Shown piece after piece: positions 8,375 to 12,634 of a stretch of DNA of 64,000 nt. A program made the translations under genes and the position numbers. Below the pieces are notes generated by a model. It was not told the origin of the DNA, made no database searches, and worked only from the letters and a program-made list of their open reading frames with translations. The stretch spans positions 105,955-169,954 of the forward strand of contig NZ_LMUT01000005.1 in the NCBI RefSeq assembly GCF_009765785.1, written 5' to 3'. This stretch comes from Granulicella sp. L46. GTDB taxonomy: Bacteria > Acidobacteriota > Terriglobia > Terriglobales > Acidobacteriaceae. The stretch's first letter is position 1; each line of letters starts with the position of its first letter.

Positions 8375-9748
8375 ATGAATACTAGGATTTGTCGGCTTCT
8401 CGTCTTTATTTTTTGGGGTGCTTTCGGATATCAAGTGTGCGCGCAAGGGCCGGGGGGAAGACCTGGCTCGGTGACGCTGTTTAATAATGTGCGTGTGTTG
8501 AACAGGGCGGGAGAACTTACTGCGCCTACGAATGTGCTGGTTCGGGGCAACTTGATTGAGCGGATTACGACGTCTCCGATTCCGACGGACCGGATGGCGA
8601 CTACGAAGATCATCGAGGGCGGCGGGAGGACGTTGATGCCGGGGATGATCGATGCACATACGCACATCATGATGCAGGAGATTCCGATGTCCGTGGCGAT
8701 GACTGCGGACATTGGATACATCACGCTGGTGGCGGGCAAGGCGGCGACGGACACGTTGATGCGTGGGTTTACCAGTATTCGCGATCTGGGTGGGCCGTCG
8801 TTTGGGCTGAAGATGGCGATCGACCAGGGGCTGTTGCCGGGGCCTCGCATTTATCCATCGGGGGCGTTCATTTCGCAGACCAGCGGGCATGGTGATTTCC
8901 GGATGCCTTATGAGATTCCGCGGGTGATTGGAGGACCGTTGAGCCACGCGGAAGTGATAGGAGTGGCTGCGATTGCGGATGGTCCTGATGAGGTGCTGCT
9001 GCGCTCGCGCGAACAGCTGATGAAGGGAGCTTCGCAGGTTAAGCTGATGGCGGGCGGCGGGGTAACGTCTGTGTACGATCCGCTCGACGTGGCGCAGTAC
9101 ACGGAGCCGGAGATTCATGCGGCGGTGCTGGCGGCGGACAACTGGGGCACGTACGTGACGGTGCATGCGTATACGCCGAAAGCGATTCAGACGGCGATTG
9201 CGGCGGGAGTGAGGTGCATCGATCATGGACAGCTCGCGGATGATGCGAGTGCGAAGCTGATGGCAGAGAAGGGGATTTGGTGGAGTCTGCAGCCGTTCCT
9301 CGATGCCGATGATGAGAGCGCTGTTTTGCCGAACCCGGCGAACCAGGCGAAGAGGCTGCAGATGAGAGCGGGGATCGACACGGCTTACAAGTTAGCGAAG
9401 AAATACAAGATTAAGACAGCGTGGGGGACGGACACGCTGTTTGACGCAAAGCTTGCAACGCGGCAGGGCGCGCAATTGACCACGCTGGTGCGCTGGTACA
9501 CGCCGTCGGAGGTATTGAAGATGGCGACGGCGGACAATGCTGAGCTGTTGGCGCTGTCGGGGCCACGCAATCCTTATCCGGGAAAACTGGGCGTGGTGGA
9601 AGAGGGAGCGTTGGCGGATCTGCTGCTGGTGGATGGCGATCCGGTGGCGGATATTAAGTTGATCGAAGATCCTGGGAAGAACTTCGTGGTGATTATGAAA
9701 GACGGTGTCATTTACAAGAACATTGTGAACGCGGAGGGGCCGCGATAG
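8375..9748 (+). CDS. Exported metal-dependent amidohydrolase (imidazolonepropionase-like)
   Basis: The 457-residue protein has an N-terminal signal sequence ending near VCAQ and then the amidohydrolase composite and TIM-barrel domains. Metal-site landmarks occur in the family order: DAHTH after strand 1, QVKLMAGGG with the likely carboxylated lysine, VTVHAYT, CIDHGQ, and the late aspartate in AWGTDTLF. Members hydrolyse amide or peptide-like bonds, and several exported relatives act as prolidases or dipeptidases. The substrate is not deducible here. It is transcribed divergently from the glutaminyl cyclase gene and ends before a bidirectional terminator. Confidence 0.88.
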   Translation: MNTRICRLLVFIFWGAFGYQVCAQGPGGRPGSVTLFNNVRVLNRAGELTAPTNVLVRGNLIERITTSPIPTDRMATTKIIEGGGRTLMPGMIDAHTHIMMQEIPMSVAMTADIGYITLVAGKAATDTLMRGFTSIRDLGGPSFGLKMAIDQGLLPGPRIYPSGAFISQTSGHGDFRMPYEIPRVIGGPLSHAEVIGVAAIADGPDEVLLRSREQLMKGASQVKLMAGGGVTSVYDPLDVAQYTEPEIHAAVLAADNWGTYVTVHAYTPKAIQTAIAAGVRCIDHGQLADDASAKLMAEKGIWWSLQPFLDADDESAVLPNPANQAKRLQMRAGIDTAYKLAKKYKIKTAWGTDTLFDAKLATRQGAQLTTLVRWYTPSEVLKMATADNAELLALSGPRNPYPGKLGVVEEGALADLLLVDGDPVADIKLIEDPGKNFVVIMKDGVIYKNIVNAEGPR

Positions 9749-9784
9749 AGGTGCGGGTGGCGATGGAGAAGCAGATTCGCCAGG

Positions 9785-9942
9785 AGAATGACAGAAAGAA
9801 AAGCAAGGACAAGAACGGGAGACAGCAGGTTCCTCGTTTCGCTCGGAATGACAATTTCCGTTGGAAATTGTCGAAGAATGGCAACGGCAGAGGCAAAAGA
9901 AGAAGCGGATTCCCAGAGGGAATGACCGAAAGAAAAGCAACA
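9785..9942. repeat. Interspersed repeat copies with nested palindrome
   Basis: This intergenic stretch after the amidohydrolase gene contains two copies of AATGACMGAAAGAAAAGCAA (M is A or C), at about 9786-9806 and 9920-9940. Between them is a type A copy with the core GGTTCCTCGTTTCGCTCGG at 9828-9846. A perfect palindrome AATTTCC-GTT-GGAAATT lies at 9853-9869. The same elements recur at 3450-3780, 40870-40910 and 62376-62420. Confidence 0.7.
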
Positions 9943-9975
9943 GCGAAGCCCGGCTGGTAAACGGCAACGATGTTG

Positions 9976-10003
9976 AAAGCCCCCGGGGTTAGCGGGGGCT
10001 TTT
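9976..10003. terminator. Bidirectional terminator between amidohydrolase and aroK
   Basis: The hairpin AAAGCCCCC / GGGGGCTTT has a nine-base loop and is followed on the plus strand by a short T tract. It lies between the converging amidohydrolase and shikimate kinase genes and overlaps the aroK stop codon. Confidence 0.75.
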
Positions 10004-10606
10004 GATGGCGGCGAGGACGGCTTCGACGGTTTGGTCGAGGGAGAGGTCTGTGGTGTGGATGGTGTGGGCGGCGATGCGCTCGTAGTGGGGGCGGCGGAGG
10101 CGGAAGCGGCGCTCGGCGAGGTTGAGGTCGGCGAGGTTGGGGCGGGCGGTGGCAGAGGGGTCGGTTGCCTGGACGGCGCAGCGGGCGACGAGGGTGTCGA
10201 AGTTGGCGCAGAGGTAGACGACGGCGGTGTGGGGTGTCTGCTCGAGGAGCAGGCGGTTGCCGAGCTCTTCGGGGGCTCCGCCGCCGAGGGCGAGGACGAG
10301 GCGGCGCTCGCCTAGCAGAGAGGCTAGCGTGGAGGATTCGAGGTGGCGGAAGTGGGCTTCGCCATTCTCGGCGAAGATCTGGGGGACGGTGCGTTGGTGG
10401 CGAGTTTCGATCTCGCGGTCGAGATCGAGGAAGCGCCAGCCGAGGCGCTCGGCGAGGAGAGCGCCGGCGGTGGTTTTTCCGGAGCCCATGAAGCCGGTGA
10501 GGATGATGCGATCGAGGGTGTCGCGTTTGGGGATGGAATGGTTCGTGGCGGGTTTGGGTTTGGTGGGCATGGCCTGGGTTGGTTCGATAAGGGTGGCTGT
10601 ACTCAT
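9989..10606 (-). CDS. aroK: Shikimate kinase
   Basis: This enzyme phosphorylates shikimate at the 3-hydroxyl with ATP, the fifth step of the chorismate pathway to Phe, Tyr and Trp. With the ATG at 10606 the protein has 205 residues: a disordered leader of about 30, then the P-loop GFMGSGKTT (38-46), the shikimate-binding DLD (61-63), FRHLE, the glycine triplet ALGGGAPEE and a lid region with RPNLADLNLAERRFRLRR. A GGAG six bases upstream fixes this start, and a longer frame would run through the upstream terminator. A leader peptide and attenuator precede it, so regulation by aromatic amino acid supply is likely. Confidence 0.93.
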   Translation of the reverse strand: MSTATLIEPTQAMPTKPKPATNHSIPKRDTLDRIILTGFMGSGKTTAGALLAERLGWRFLDLDREIETRHQRTVPQIFAENGEAHFRHLESSTLASLLGERRLVLALGGGAPEELGNRLLLEQTPHTAVVYLCANFDTLVARCAVQATDPSATARPNLADLNLAERRFRLRRPHYERIAAHTIHTTDLSLDQTVEAVLAAIKSPR

Positions 10607-10650
10607 TGTCGTCTCCGTTGGTGGTTCGGTGAAGCAAAGTTTGTTGGGGC

Positions 10651-10682
10651 AAAAGAAAAACCGCAGACCTTGTGGGCTGCGG
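10651..10682 (-). terminator. Intrinsic terminator in the aroK leader (attenuator)
   Basis: Read on the minus strand, the stem CCGCAG/CTGCGG is extended inward by CC/GG around a small loop and is followed by TTTTTCTTTT. It lies between the leader peptide stop codon and the aroK ribosome-binding site and so would abort transcription before the gene. Bases of its 5' arm and loop (10666-10674) can alternatively pair with 10728-10736 in the leader peptide coding region, giving a mutually exclusive antiterminator. Confidence 0.85.
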
Positions 10683-10706
10683 CTCGGTGGATGGCTTGGG
10701 TTCTCG

Positions 10707-10799
10707 TTAGGGGTGATCAGAGAAGCGCACAAGGCCGCCGGGCCGCTGGGGATACCAGTAGCAATAGCTAAATCGGCCGGTGGTGGGGCGCAGGTTCAT
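10707..10799 (-). CDS. Aromatic-rich leader peptide of aroK
   Basis: The frame starts at ATG 10799, ends at TAA 10709-10707 and encodes 30 residues. Residues 10-16 read FSYCYWY, so Phe, Tyr, Tyr, Trp and Tyr codons fall within seven positions, followed by PQRPGG. It lies upstream of the aroK terminator. Its stop codon is about 20 bases beyond the antiterminator segment 10728-10736, so a ribosome finishing translation would cover that segment and let the terminator form. A ribosome stalled on the aromatic codons would leave it free. No Shine-Dalgarno sequence is visible, which agrees with a nearly leaderless transcript. Confidence 0.8.
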   Translation of the reverse strand: MNLRPTTGRFSYCYWYPQRPGGLVRFSDHP

Positions 10800-10807
10800 C
10801 GAGATTG

Positions 10808-10836
10808 ATGGTAGCGCGATGAGGAGCTAATGGCAA
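10808..10836 (-). promoter_or_regulatory. Predicted sigma70-type promoter of the aroK leader
   Basis: On the minus strand TTGCCA (10836-10831) and TACCAT (10813-10808) are separated by exactly 17 bases. The expected transcription start falls at about 10801-10799, essentially on the leader peptide ATG. The match to consensus is moderate and the assignment rests on position as well as sequence. Confidence 0.5.
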
Positions 10837-10932
10837 GAAGCAATTCTGCGTGCAACGCAGGCTGTAACTCTTGACAGTAGTGTGGGGGCCTATGCGGCCT
10901 ATAGATTTTCTTCCCGAGCCCGGACGAAGGTT

Positions 10933-11616
10933 CTATGCGCGGGGCAGCGTCAGGATATGGAAAACCGGAATGCAGAGTAGAAGAGTAGCGACTACGAGTA
11001 GTGCTAATCGGACACCGCGAGTTTTGAAACGCTGACTGATTGCCATCAACAGGAGCACCGTTGCCAGCGTCACGGTTACTCGCACGTACTGGTCGGAGAG
11101 CTGTCGGTCTCGAGTGCCTTGCTCGAATACTTCCGTAGCTTGGTCATTCAATTTGGCAGCTTCTTCCGTCTTGGAGCTTCGGTATGCCGTCATCGACTGA
11201 GGACCTGGCGGAGCATTTGGGTTGTTGATGGGGTCAGTGTTCTTCCAAGCTTCAAAGGAGGGACGAAATTCAGGAAGCAAACGCCGTTCAAAAAGATCGG
11301 CGAGTTTCTTGTCGCCGTGCGCTTCCGCTTTCAGCCACTCAACCACGGTCGAAGAGTTATACAAACGCTCCTGATTCGCGTAGGTGGCAGCTCCCTCGGC
11401 TTGAACCCGCAGTTTGCTTGCCTGGCCATAGAGCTCTGACTGATGCCCGGTCCAAAGCGCTGCCTGATAACCACTCCAGGCAGTGGTAATAGCGACTATG
11501 GCGAGGATTAAGGCCTCGACGATCTCCAATATTTCGTGCCCCACGGACTGTGATGGTTCTTTGCGCTCGCTTAGGTGGTGAGCGATTTCGATGTTAGAAC
11601 CTCCAGCCTCGGGCAT
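10933..11616 (-). CDS. Conserved membrane protein of unknown function
   Basis: The 227-residue protein has a membrane segment near 30-50 (LILAIVAITTAWSGYQAALW), a long soluble, probably periplasmic or coiled region of about 130 residues, and two closing helices near 178-196 and 203-222. The stretch TTAWSGYQAALWTGHQSELY followed by a basic, alpha-helical segment is characteristic of an uncharacterised bacterial family that I know only as hypothetical membrane proteins. It stands alone on the minus strand, upstream of the aroK leader. No function is assigned. Confidence 0.75.
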   Translation of the reverse strand: MPEAGGSNIEIAHHLSERKEPSQSVGHEILEIVEALILAIVAITTAWSGYQAALWTGHQSELYGQASKLRVQAEGAATYANQERLYNSSTVVEWLKAEAHGDKKLADLFERRLLPEFRPSFEAWKNTDPINNPNAPPGPQSMTAYRSSKTEEAAKLNDQATEVFEQGTRDRQLSDQYVRVTVTLATVLLLMAISQRFKTRGVRLALLVVATLLLCIPVFHILTLPRA

Positions 11617-11744
11617 TCGGAAGGTCTCCTCTTAGAGCGTCCTATGGTAAATCACGGGTCGAACTTTAGCATATGCCGGCAGTGTTGAGAGGCCGCGCTG
11701 TGTTGCCGAAAACACCGTTTTGCGGGGAGTGGCCTTCGTTAGTC

Positions 11745-12470
11745 TCACATCTGCGAGAGTTGATAATTGAAGTTCTTGATCGCAACTGTCATCTGTTTGC
11801 TGACCCCGTTGACCAGTACGCTGGAAACATAGTTGACTCCAACCGGCAGCTTGGAAAATTGCACGGCGAGGGTGACAGTATCGGTCGGCGCGGTTAGATA
11901 AGTGGCGACCTGCAGCGACAGAATCGACTTCGACGCCTGATCGAATACGAGAGTCATTGAGTCTCCCGGTTTGATGTAATTCCTGATCACCAGAGTAATT
12001 GTGCCGGGGGCTCCGCCTAGTTGAATCGAAATATTGCCCGTCGCGTAAGCCCGCTGCAATAGCTGCGGGTCTGGCGGTGCATATTGCTTTACGAGCCCGG
12101 CGACGTCCTGGCCGTACTGCTGAAACTCACCGGTCTTCTTTGCGACAATCCTCTGCTTCAATCTTCCACCCGAGGGAGGGGGTGCGGAGGTTGAACCTAA
12201 TTCAATCTTCTGCTGCTGTCCATCGGGGCCGAGACTGACCTGGTAGCTTACCGTCTTCTTAACCTCGCCCTTCAGGCTGATCACTTGTTGCTCCTGCCAG
12301 GTGTAGCGAGCGAGGGCCTGTTTGTTTGCCGCAGCAGCTTGTTTGACTGCCTGCACTTTCGCCATCAATTCTGGATTTTGTGCGTAGGCTACGGGGACAG
12401 CAAATACCAGACCGGAAGCGATGGCTGAAAGGACGACTGCCGAAACCGTGGATGTCAGATGAGTCTTCAT
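11745..12470 (-). CDS. Exported protein of unknown function
   Basis: The 241-residue product starts at an ATG preceded by GAGG at a good distance and has a signal peptide ending near PVAYAQ. The mature part contains a short helical segment (AVKQAAAANKQALARYTWQEQ), a beta-rich middle with VISLKGEVKKTVSYQVSLGPDGQQQK, and a C-terminal half rich in strands (PTDTVTLAVQFSKLP). It resembles lipoprotein-like or outer-membrane-associated unknowns of Acidobacteriota, but I do not recognise a named domain. A longer frame extending upstream lacks a ribosome-binding site. Confidence 0.7.
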   Translation of the reverse strand: MKTHLTSTVSAVVLSAIASGLVFAVPVAYAQNPELMAKVQAVKQAAAANKQALARYTWQEQQVISLKGEVKKTVSYQVSLGPDGQQQKIELGSTSAPPPSGGRLKQRIVAKKTGEFQQYGQDVAGLVKQYAPPDPQLLQRAYATGNISIQLGGAPGTITLVIRNYIKPGDSMTLVFDQASKSILSLQVATYLTAPTDTVTLAVQFSKLPVGVNYVSSVLVNGVSKQMTVAIKNFNYQLSQM

Positions 12471-12634
12471 ATTTTTCCTCGTTAGAAAATTGGATAGCTG
12501 CAGGTTTCGGGCGGCAATGCCCAGCGAATCGTTGGTTTTCCGAATGATTGCCGACCCAGTGTACGCCTCGGTCGGCGCGCAACGTCGATGGAAGCCACCG
12601 GCACAAACACCGTCAGGCGTTGTTTGGGATAAAG

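Follow-up and report, generated by a model that had tools for sequence, protein, structure and literature searches.

Introduction

Enterobacterial trpL and pheL leaders, which precede trpEDCBA and pheA, respectively, combine regulatory codons in a short leader peptide with an intrinsic terminator and the logic of alternative 1:2, 2:3, and 3:4 pairing. In Corynebacterium glutamicum, an aroR leader before aroF (DAHP synthase) was reportedly described by Neshat et al. in 2014. Passages of two articles (PMC11802643, PMC7356990) describe this leader, with Phe-Tyr-Phe, as attenuating a common-pathway gene; a passage of PMC3890552 also mentions a C. glutamicum leader before aroF, and trpL and pheL are named as attenuators in a passage of PMC11802643. 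For actinobacterial trp attenuators, an excerpt of PMC1262725 gives GC-rich complementary triples (gGCC-rGCy-GGCC) common to the antiterminator and the terminator. In Sinorhizobium meliloti, the 5' end of the rnTrpL attenuator RNA is the ATG of the peTrpL leader ORF, according to a section of PMC7298713. A survey states in one passage that almost none of the predicted Acidobacteria attenuators had an associated function (PMC2965389). Among the matches listed from the open PMC literature, neither an attenuator before aroK nor, for Acidobacteriota, a named gene under leader-peptide attenuation was reported. In this study, we analyzed the region in front of aroK in a 64,000-nucleotide stretch of Granulicella sp. 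L46 DNA (hereafter the window). Judged from its sequence, this region very probably acts as a ribosome-mediated transcription attenuator that reads aminoacyl-tRNA(Phe), aminoacyl-tRNA(Tyr), and aminoacyl-tRNA(Trp).

Materials and methods

Elements were collected with two covariance models, R1 and R2; R2 was built on 73 elements. Alignment A5 omits six opposite-strand or partial matches and ten near-duplicate sources. Three loci (L117, L126, and L240), having neither an aromatic leader nor an aromatic gene, were dropped as false model matches. The first downstream gene was called by tblastn with four reference proteins. The codon table covers 117 of the 118 elements (L073, an aroK element, is without a leader by the length rule), and start codons were set by hand for seven leaders (L218, L225, L229, L231, L234, L242, and L243).

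Pairing between cognate arms was compared with pairing between arms swapped among loci, first in 32 representatives (L103, which contains N, was left out). The test was then repeated with one element per genus (n = 35), using the first GCGG as the segment-2 anchor and no energies. L239, which has no start, was left out of the later swap tests.

Results

Anatomy of the aroK leader region

All features described here lie on the minus strand. aroK (9989-10606) encodes a 205-aa shikimate kinase (PF01202, E 8.7e-38, above the Pfam cut-off); its best NCBIfam models are shikimate kinases, yet it scores below their cut-offs. A 30-codon leader peptide ORF, MNLRPTTGRFSYCYWYPQRPGGLVRFSDHP, precedes aroK at 10799-10707, as the preliminary description had reported, and carries the regulatory codons F-S-Y-C-Y-W-Y as codons 10-16 (10752-10772). 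Stretches of seven codons with at least five F/Y/W are scarce: the six reading frames of the window contain 108,878 stop-free stretches of this length, of which five, two of them overlapping, have such a composition, and FSYCYWY is one of the five. Upstream of the ORF is a promoter-like site (10808-10836; -35 TTGCCA, 17-nt spacer, -10 TACCAT) with similar boxes at the same spot in relatives. The distance from the end of its -10 box to the leader ATG is 8 nt.

Four RNA segments can be assigned. Segment 1, GCTACTGG (10755-10762), holds the Tyr-Trp codons and is the partner of segment 2, which has a 1:2 hairpin version, CCAGCGGC (10742-10749), and an antiterminator version, GCGGCCCGG (10738-10746). 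Segment 3, CCGAGCCGC (10679-10687), is the antiterminator partner and also the base of the terminator 5' arm. The 3:4 terminator hairpin, GCCGCAGCC ... GGTCTGCGG (10661-10683), is followed by the T-run TTTTTCTTTT (10651-10660), which ends at 10651. Both sequence and folding place an intrinsic terminator between the leader and the gene, where it had been noted before: the folding energy of the 39-nt stretch is -16.5 kcal/mol, compared with a shuffle mean of -7.0 (z -4.0; 0/200 shuffles as good). It was absent from the output of a simple terminator scan of the window.

The same anatomy bears on a translational outcome, in which the hairpins would govern ribosome access to aroK or the ORF would merely couple translation. 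The leader is indeed close to the gene, its stop ending about 100 nt before the aroK ATG. However, the aroK start, GGAGACGACAATG, lies outside the helices, and in 118/118 elements of the family described below, an 8-nt span at the end of the 3:4 stem contains at least five T. We regard a translational outcome as extremely unlikely and transcription attenuation as the preferred reading.

Farther upstream is a gene for a 227-aa protein (10933-11616) with a hydrophobic C-terminus by eye and no Pfam match at E ≤ 0.001. Between this gene and the aroK promoter-like site, the hairpin CTGCGTTGCACGCAG (10846-10860) appeared terminator-like in the scan.

Conservation and pairing within the genus

The 251-bp leader stretch matched 18 of 61 genomes (its own and relatives), all of one genus (the Granulicella group). 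Three diverged leader copies (L020, L030, and L034) were found by inspecting the region upstream of aroK in other genus genomes. Leader, arms, and terminator precede aroK in 21 of the 28 genus genomes; five (G005, G008, G017, G018, and G024) lack the leader in front of aroK, and two incomplete genomes (G010 and G019) yielded no aroK. The genus-type motif was absent at 16 aroK loci outside the genus (of 22; the other six had no script-recognizable kinase motif).

The aromatic run and its position are kept in the 21 genus sequences, and AGCGGC directly follows the aromatic codons in 21/21. In L001, L002, L003, and L015, a different frame is read (QRPGG or QRPAD in place of PAARR) and the nucleotides, including those of the antiterminator version of segment 2, are largely kept; therefore, the stretch after the aromatic codons seems to be selected as RNA. 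CGATTTA (Arg-Phe plus A; 10769-10775 in the window) is common to the 21 leaders of the genus. Phe is encoded in leaders by TTT 211 times and by TTC 150 times.

The alignment of related aroK upstream regions, which had been suggested as a check, retained the leader, the aromatic codons, and the terminator, but not the antiterminator originally proposed. That pairing, 10728-10736 with 10666-10674, forms 9/9 pairs in the window, 7-8/9 in L002-L009, and 4-6/9 in L010-L018. On these 18 genus sequences (own plus 17), it was rejected as a conserved antiterminator; it is a true pairing but probably not the working antiterminator. The conserved antiterminator is instead predicted to be the 2:3 helix, GCGGCCCGG with CCGAGCCGC, just past the aromatic codons. 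The competing 1:2 hairpin, which contains the Tyr/Trp codons, had been overlooked.

The 2:3 arms pair in 90.4% of cells in the 21 genus sequences, compared with 24-45% for slid versions, and both sides are changed in L030 and L034 (GCGGCTTTG with CGAAGCCGC). None of 500 shuffles reached its number of cells paired, doubly changed cells, or covariation score; 48/500 reached its doubly changed pair count, 45 its number of pair types, and a slid version (-3) has a covariation score as high as the true register. Six of the nine pairs are invariant in the aroK group. The 3:4 terminator pairs in 94.2% of cells with a G-C/A-U exchange in eight members, and 194/500 shuffles reached its doubly changed pair count. 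Covariation within the genus is modest.

Distribution of the family and downstream genes

Model R1 matched 96 of 300 family genomes, often twice per genome. Second matches were located upstream of trpB; others preceded a DAHP synthase, chorismate mutase, or aroK gene. Model R2 matched 201 of 397 genomes of the order; among the matches listed, 200 belonged to Acidobacteriaceae and the remaining one to a second family. In a phylum sample, 31 of 347 genomes matched R2, all of them Acidobacteriaceae. The only R2 match outside the main family among those listed (L232 in G048, of the second family of the order) is a chorismate mutase leader, MQFTRSFAAGFAYRFAYRYRATGG..., which may point to an older origin of the leader family.

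Of 52 loci in contig records that fit the leader pattern, 40 scored with R2 and 12 did not. The scoring records include Terriglobus albidus, Edaphobacter modestus, E. aggregans, Bryocella elongata, and Granulicella, and all 40 are labelled as Acidobacteria or a taxon of it, except L176 (Verrucomicrobia) and L198 ('bacterium'). L176 (CAJCIP010000070.1) carries the leader and is probably mislabelled.

In a chosen set of 118 elements (all genus matches found early, top matches, then further genera), the first downstream gene was aroK in 39, trpB in 34, DAHP synthase in 31, chorismate mutase in 12, and unassigned in two. Scores above the Pfam cut-off were obtained for examples of trpB (one), DAHP synthase (one), and chorismate mutase (two). 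The control of a lone shikimate kinase, as first envisaged, holds insofar as the element precedes aroK; such elements also precede trpB, DAHP synthase, and chorismate mutase genes. The attenuator belongs to a family for which no description was found in the literature searched.

The window's genome contains exactly two elements at E ≤ 5, that of aroK and one at G000:C19:7866-7996, between a trpF-like ORF and trpB. The row after the latter, on the same strand (L248:367-7552), comprises trpB, a small ORF, trpA, chorismate mutase (aroQ), DAHP synthase (aroF), proB, proA, and a tyrA-like (prephenate dehydrogenase-like) gene, and would form one transcript from trpB to tyrA. The NCBIfam cut-offs were passed by trpB, trpA, DAHP synthase, proB, and proA; chorismate mutase, prephenate dehydrogenase, and the truncated trpF at the edge of the stretch fell below them, and the chorismate mutase passed the Pfam cut-off. 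Two proline genes, proB and proA, are enclosed in an aromatic gene row. The trpB-to-tyrA order is the same in G022; at two Terriglobus-group loci (L250 and L251), only trpB-trpA-aroQ-aroF was found in 10.7 kb. Two more DAHP synthase genes of the window's genome (G000:C19:267246-267998 and G000:C5:322827-323579) are away from any R2 match.

Codon content and pathway branch

Chorismate mutase leads to Phe and Tyr only, and aroK and DAHP synthase serve all three aromatic amino acids. Codons for the pathway products are clustered in the short leader ORFs: F, Y, and W make up 23.3% of residues in 108 leaders, compared with 4.7% for three enzymes of the set. Ahead of the antiterminator arm, Trp codons were present in 38/38 aroK, 34/34 trpB, and 23/31 DAHP synthase leaders, and in 0/12 chorismate mutase leaders; eight of the 31 DAHP synthase leaders are without Trp. 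In one chorismate mutase leader (L220), Trp is the last residue, beyond the arm.

Counted by genus, the 72/72 aroK and trpB leaders with Trp in the run represent nine genera, and the chorismate mutase leaders represent seven genera of two families. The genera with Trp are 9/9 versus 0/7 (p 8.7e-5), a comparison in which codon content is confounded with lineage because no genus is shared between the two groups. DAHP synthase elements have Trp in most leaders of 16/22 genera, again versus 0/7 for chorismate mutase. The codons match the product of the gene that they would regulate, as would be expected if the leaders sense their own branch, though the gene groups come from different genera.

This pattern is relevant to two other explanations. 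A trans-acting factor, such as an RNA-binding protein, a T-box-like tRNA contact, or a small-molecule riboswitch, might pick the helix with the ORF being incidental, and the alternative helices alone would be equally usable by such a factor. A switch based on structure only is not expected to have Trp codons that track the branch; however, codon content goes with the gene, and aromatic residues are five times commoner in the leaders than in the three enzymes. Moreover, no Rfam family reached threshold: Rfam 15 gave no match at the leader (window 9000-12500, E ≤ 5), one chance-level snoRNA match elsewhere, and none on six member loci at E ≤ 1. A trans-acting factor is therefore a most improbable explanation.

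Nascent-peptide arrest is also very unlikely, if less so than a trans-acting factor or a translational outcome. Like TnaC, a leader peptide that senses a free amino acid inside the ribosome, the peptide (RF-S/T-Y-x-Y-W...) would sense a free aromatic amino acid in the ribosome and drive antitermination. It would agree with the conservation of residues beyond the aromatic ones, such as the Arg-Phe of CGATTTA in all 21 genus sequences and Arg-Tyr-Trp in many other leaders. The Arg codon of Arg-Tyr-Trp, however, is within the 1:2 arm, which could explain why Arg is conserved. The residues after the Trp-Tyr codons are out of frame in the four sequences with a shifted frame (L001, L002, L003, and L015), their nucleotides being largely kept, and the lack of Trp codons in 12/12 chorismate mutase leaders fits tRNA sensing by branch, as the attenuation reading holds.

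Covariation across genera

Cognate arms paired better than arms swapped between loci. In the 32 representatives, z was -7.9 for 1:2, -5.7 for 2:3, and -4.7 for 2:3 without its invariant core, values that favor cognate pairs since the segment-2 anchor was picked by pairing with its own segment 3. In the repeat (n = 35), z was -7.4 for 1:2, -7.6 for 2:3 with the core, and -6.5 without it, each with 0/20000 permutations. DAHP synthase leaders alone (n = 21) gave -4.9, -6.2, and -5.5, respectively. trpB leaders alone (n = 8 genera) gave -3.0 for 1:2 and no 2:3 covariation signal (z 0.0 and 0.2). Hence, except within trpB leaders alone, covariation supports an antiterminator that excludes the terminator, as well as a family-wide 1:2 protector hairpin that, in silico, a ribosome on the regulatory codons would disrupt.

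In 32 parsed elements, the Tyr codon UAC/UAU went with G/A on the opposite arm (25:2 vs 0:4, p 5e-4); therefore, codon and helix are kept together in those elements. RNAalifold on 73 elements predicted the terminator, with double changes in 8/11 of its pairs, and by itself predicted neither 1:2 nor 2:3.

Transcription and translation starts

A promoter-like site was found in 108 of 118 leaders and in none of the other ten. In these 108, the -35 box lies 16-18 nt upstream of the -10-like box, and in 103 the distance from the end of the -10-like box to the start is 6-12 nt (range permitted in the scan, 5-15). A promoter score of at least 7 was reached in 88 of 102 ATG leaders versus 10.0 expected in shuffles, a figure somewhat biased because the start choice used the same score. 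Shine-Dalgarno-like words occurred in 2/107 leaders versus 2.7 expected. Given the promoter position and no Shine-Dalgarno excess, leader mRNAs are probably leaderless or nearly so, with ORFs that begin at or near 5' ends placed by the promoter.

Proposed mechanism and folding

Ribosome-mediated attenuation by mixed Phe, Tyr, and Trp codons before aroK, the core of the preliminary description, is backed by conservation and covariation. From the anatomy and codon-gene association observed above, we infer the following course of transcription start, stalling, termination, and starvation response. RNA polymerase would start a few bases upstream of the leader ATG, and ribosome loading, at or close to the 5' end, would not involve a Shine-Dalgarno sequence. 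When charged tRNA is plentiful, the ribosome would pass the aromatic codons and cover segment 2, or 1:2 would re-form behind it; segment 3 would then join segment 4 as the terminator, and aroK would remain untranscribed. A shortage of any one of the three tRNAs would stall the ribosome in F-S-Y-C-Y-W, where it would hold 1:2 open and leave segment 2 largely free to take segment 3, so that the polymerase could read into aroK. The same scheme would apply to the trpB, aroF, and aroQ members, whose Trp codons would be retained or lost according to branch.

Of 76 measured Trp-containing leaders, 56 have a distance of 12 nt from the start of the first Trp codon to the GCGGC core; in the window, the corresponding distance to segment 2 is 11 nt. 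Because a stalled ribosome covers about 12 nt, counted from the first base of the A-site codon, the antiterminator arm would be left nearly free. In stall simulations of the window with the 3' arm unmade, 2:3 formed (7-8 pairs) with the ribosome at Phe, Tyr1, Tyr2, or Trp, and did not form at the last Tyr, where part of segment 2 is masked, or at the stop. Six of the 2:3 pairs also formed in the absence of a ribosome before the 3' arm was made. In the full transcript, the terminator was in the minimum of all seven simulated states, which, on this modelling, would mean that antitermination must be kinetic, chosen during transcription.

Discussion

A broader account covers the whole set of elements, and we favor it by a modest margin over its negation. 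It holds that one homologous leader-RNA family of Acidobacteriaceae, on leaderless or near-leaderless mRNAs, came by copying or movement to stand before genes for four entry points into the aromatic pathway, namely DAHP synthase, shikimate kinase, chorismate mutase, and tryptophan synthase. At each gene, it would respond to the charging of up to three tRNAs in the manner of an OR-gate, through a set of codons adjusted to the branch (with Trp lost before chorismate mutase). For soil bacteria, this provides a defined family with a predicted signal and mechanism, covarying helices, and a regulon. The presence or absence of Trp codons among related elements amounts to a natural experiment on multi-amino-acid sensing, and the same elements bear on how a leader is re-tuned when placed before another gene. 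The covariance models can be used to annotate the leader family.

The element shares the 1:2/2:3/3:4 logic, the codons in a short leader peptide, and the intrinsic terminator with enterobacterial trpL and pheL. Distinct from these, which sense a single amino acid, it would read three, with Tyr/Trp codons inside segment 1; it also has no Shine-Dalgarno sequence and, as placed by its promoter, would have almost no 5' UTR, and Rfam models do not match it. The GC-rich triple of actinobacterial trp attenuators has a likeness in GCGGC-GCCGC-TGCGG, although those attenuators, in the passages at hand, use UGG codons, precede trp operons and trpS, and belong to another phylum. As in S. meliloti rnTrpL, the RNA would begin at or near the leader ATG, 5' ends here being set by promoter position; the S. 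meliloti system, as far as the cited section goes, concerns Trp only, and its products act in trans. The closest precedent is C. glutamicum aroR, likened here from partial descriptions, in which a common-pathway gene is likewise attenuated by a leader with mixed aromatic codons. That leader has Phe and Tyr only and serves a DAHP synthase operon of an actinobacterium, whereas the present one combines Phe, Tyr, and Trp before aroK and has related elements before aroK, trpB, aroF, and aroQ.
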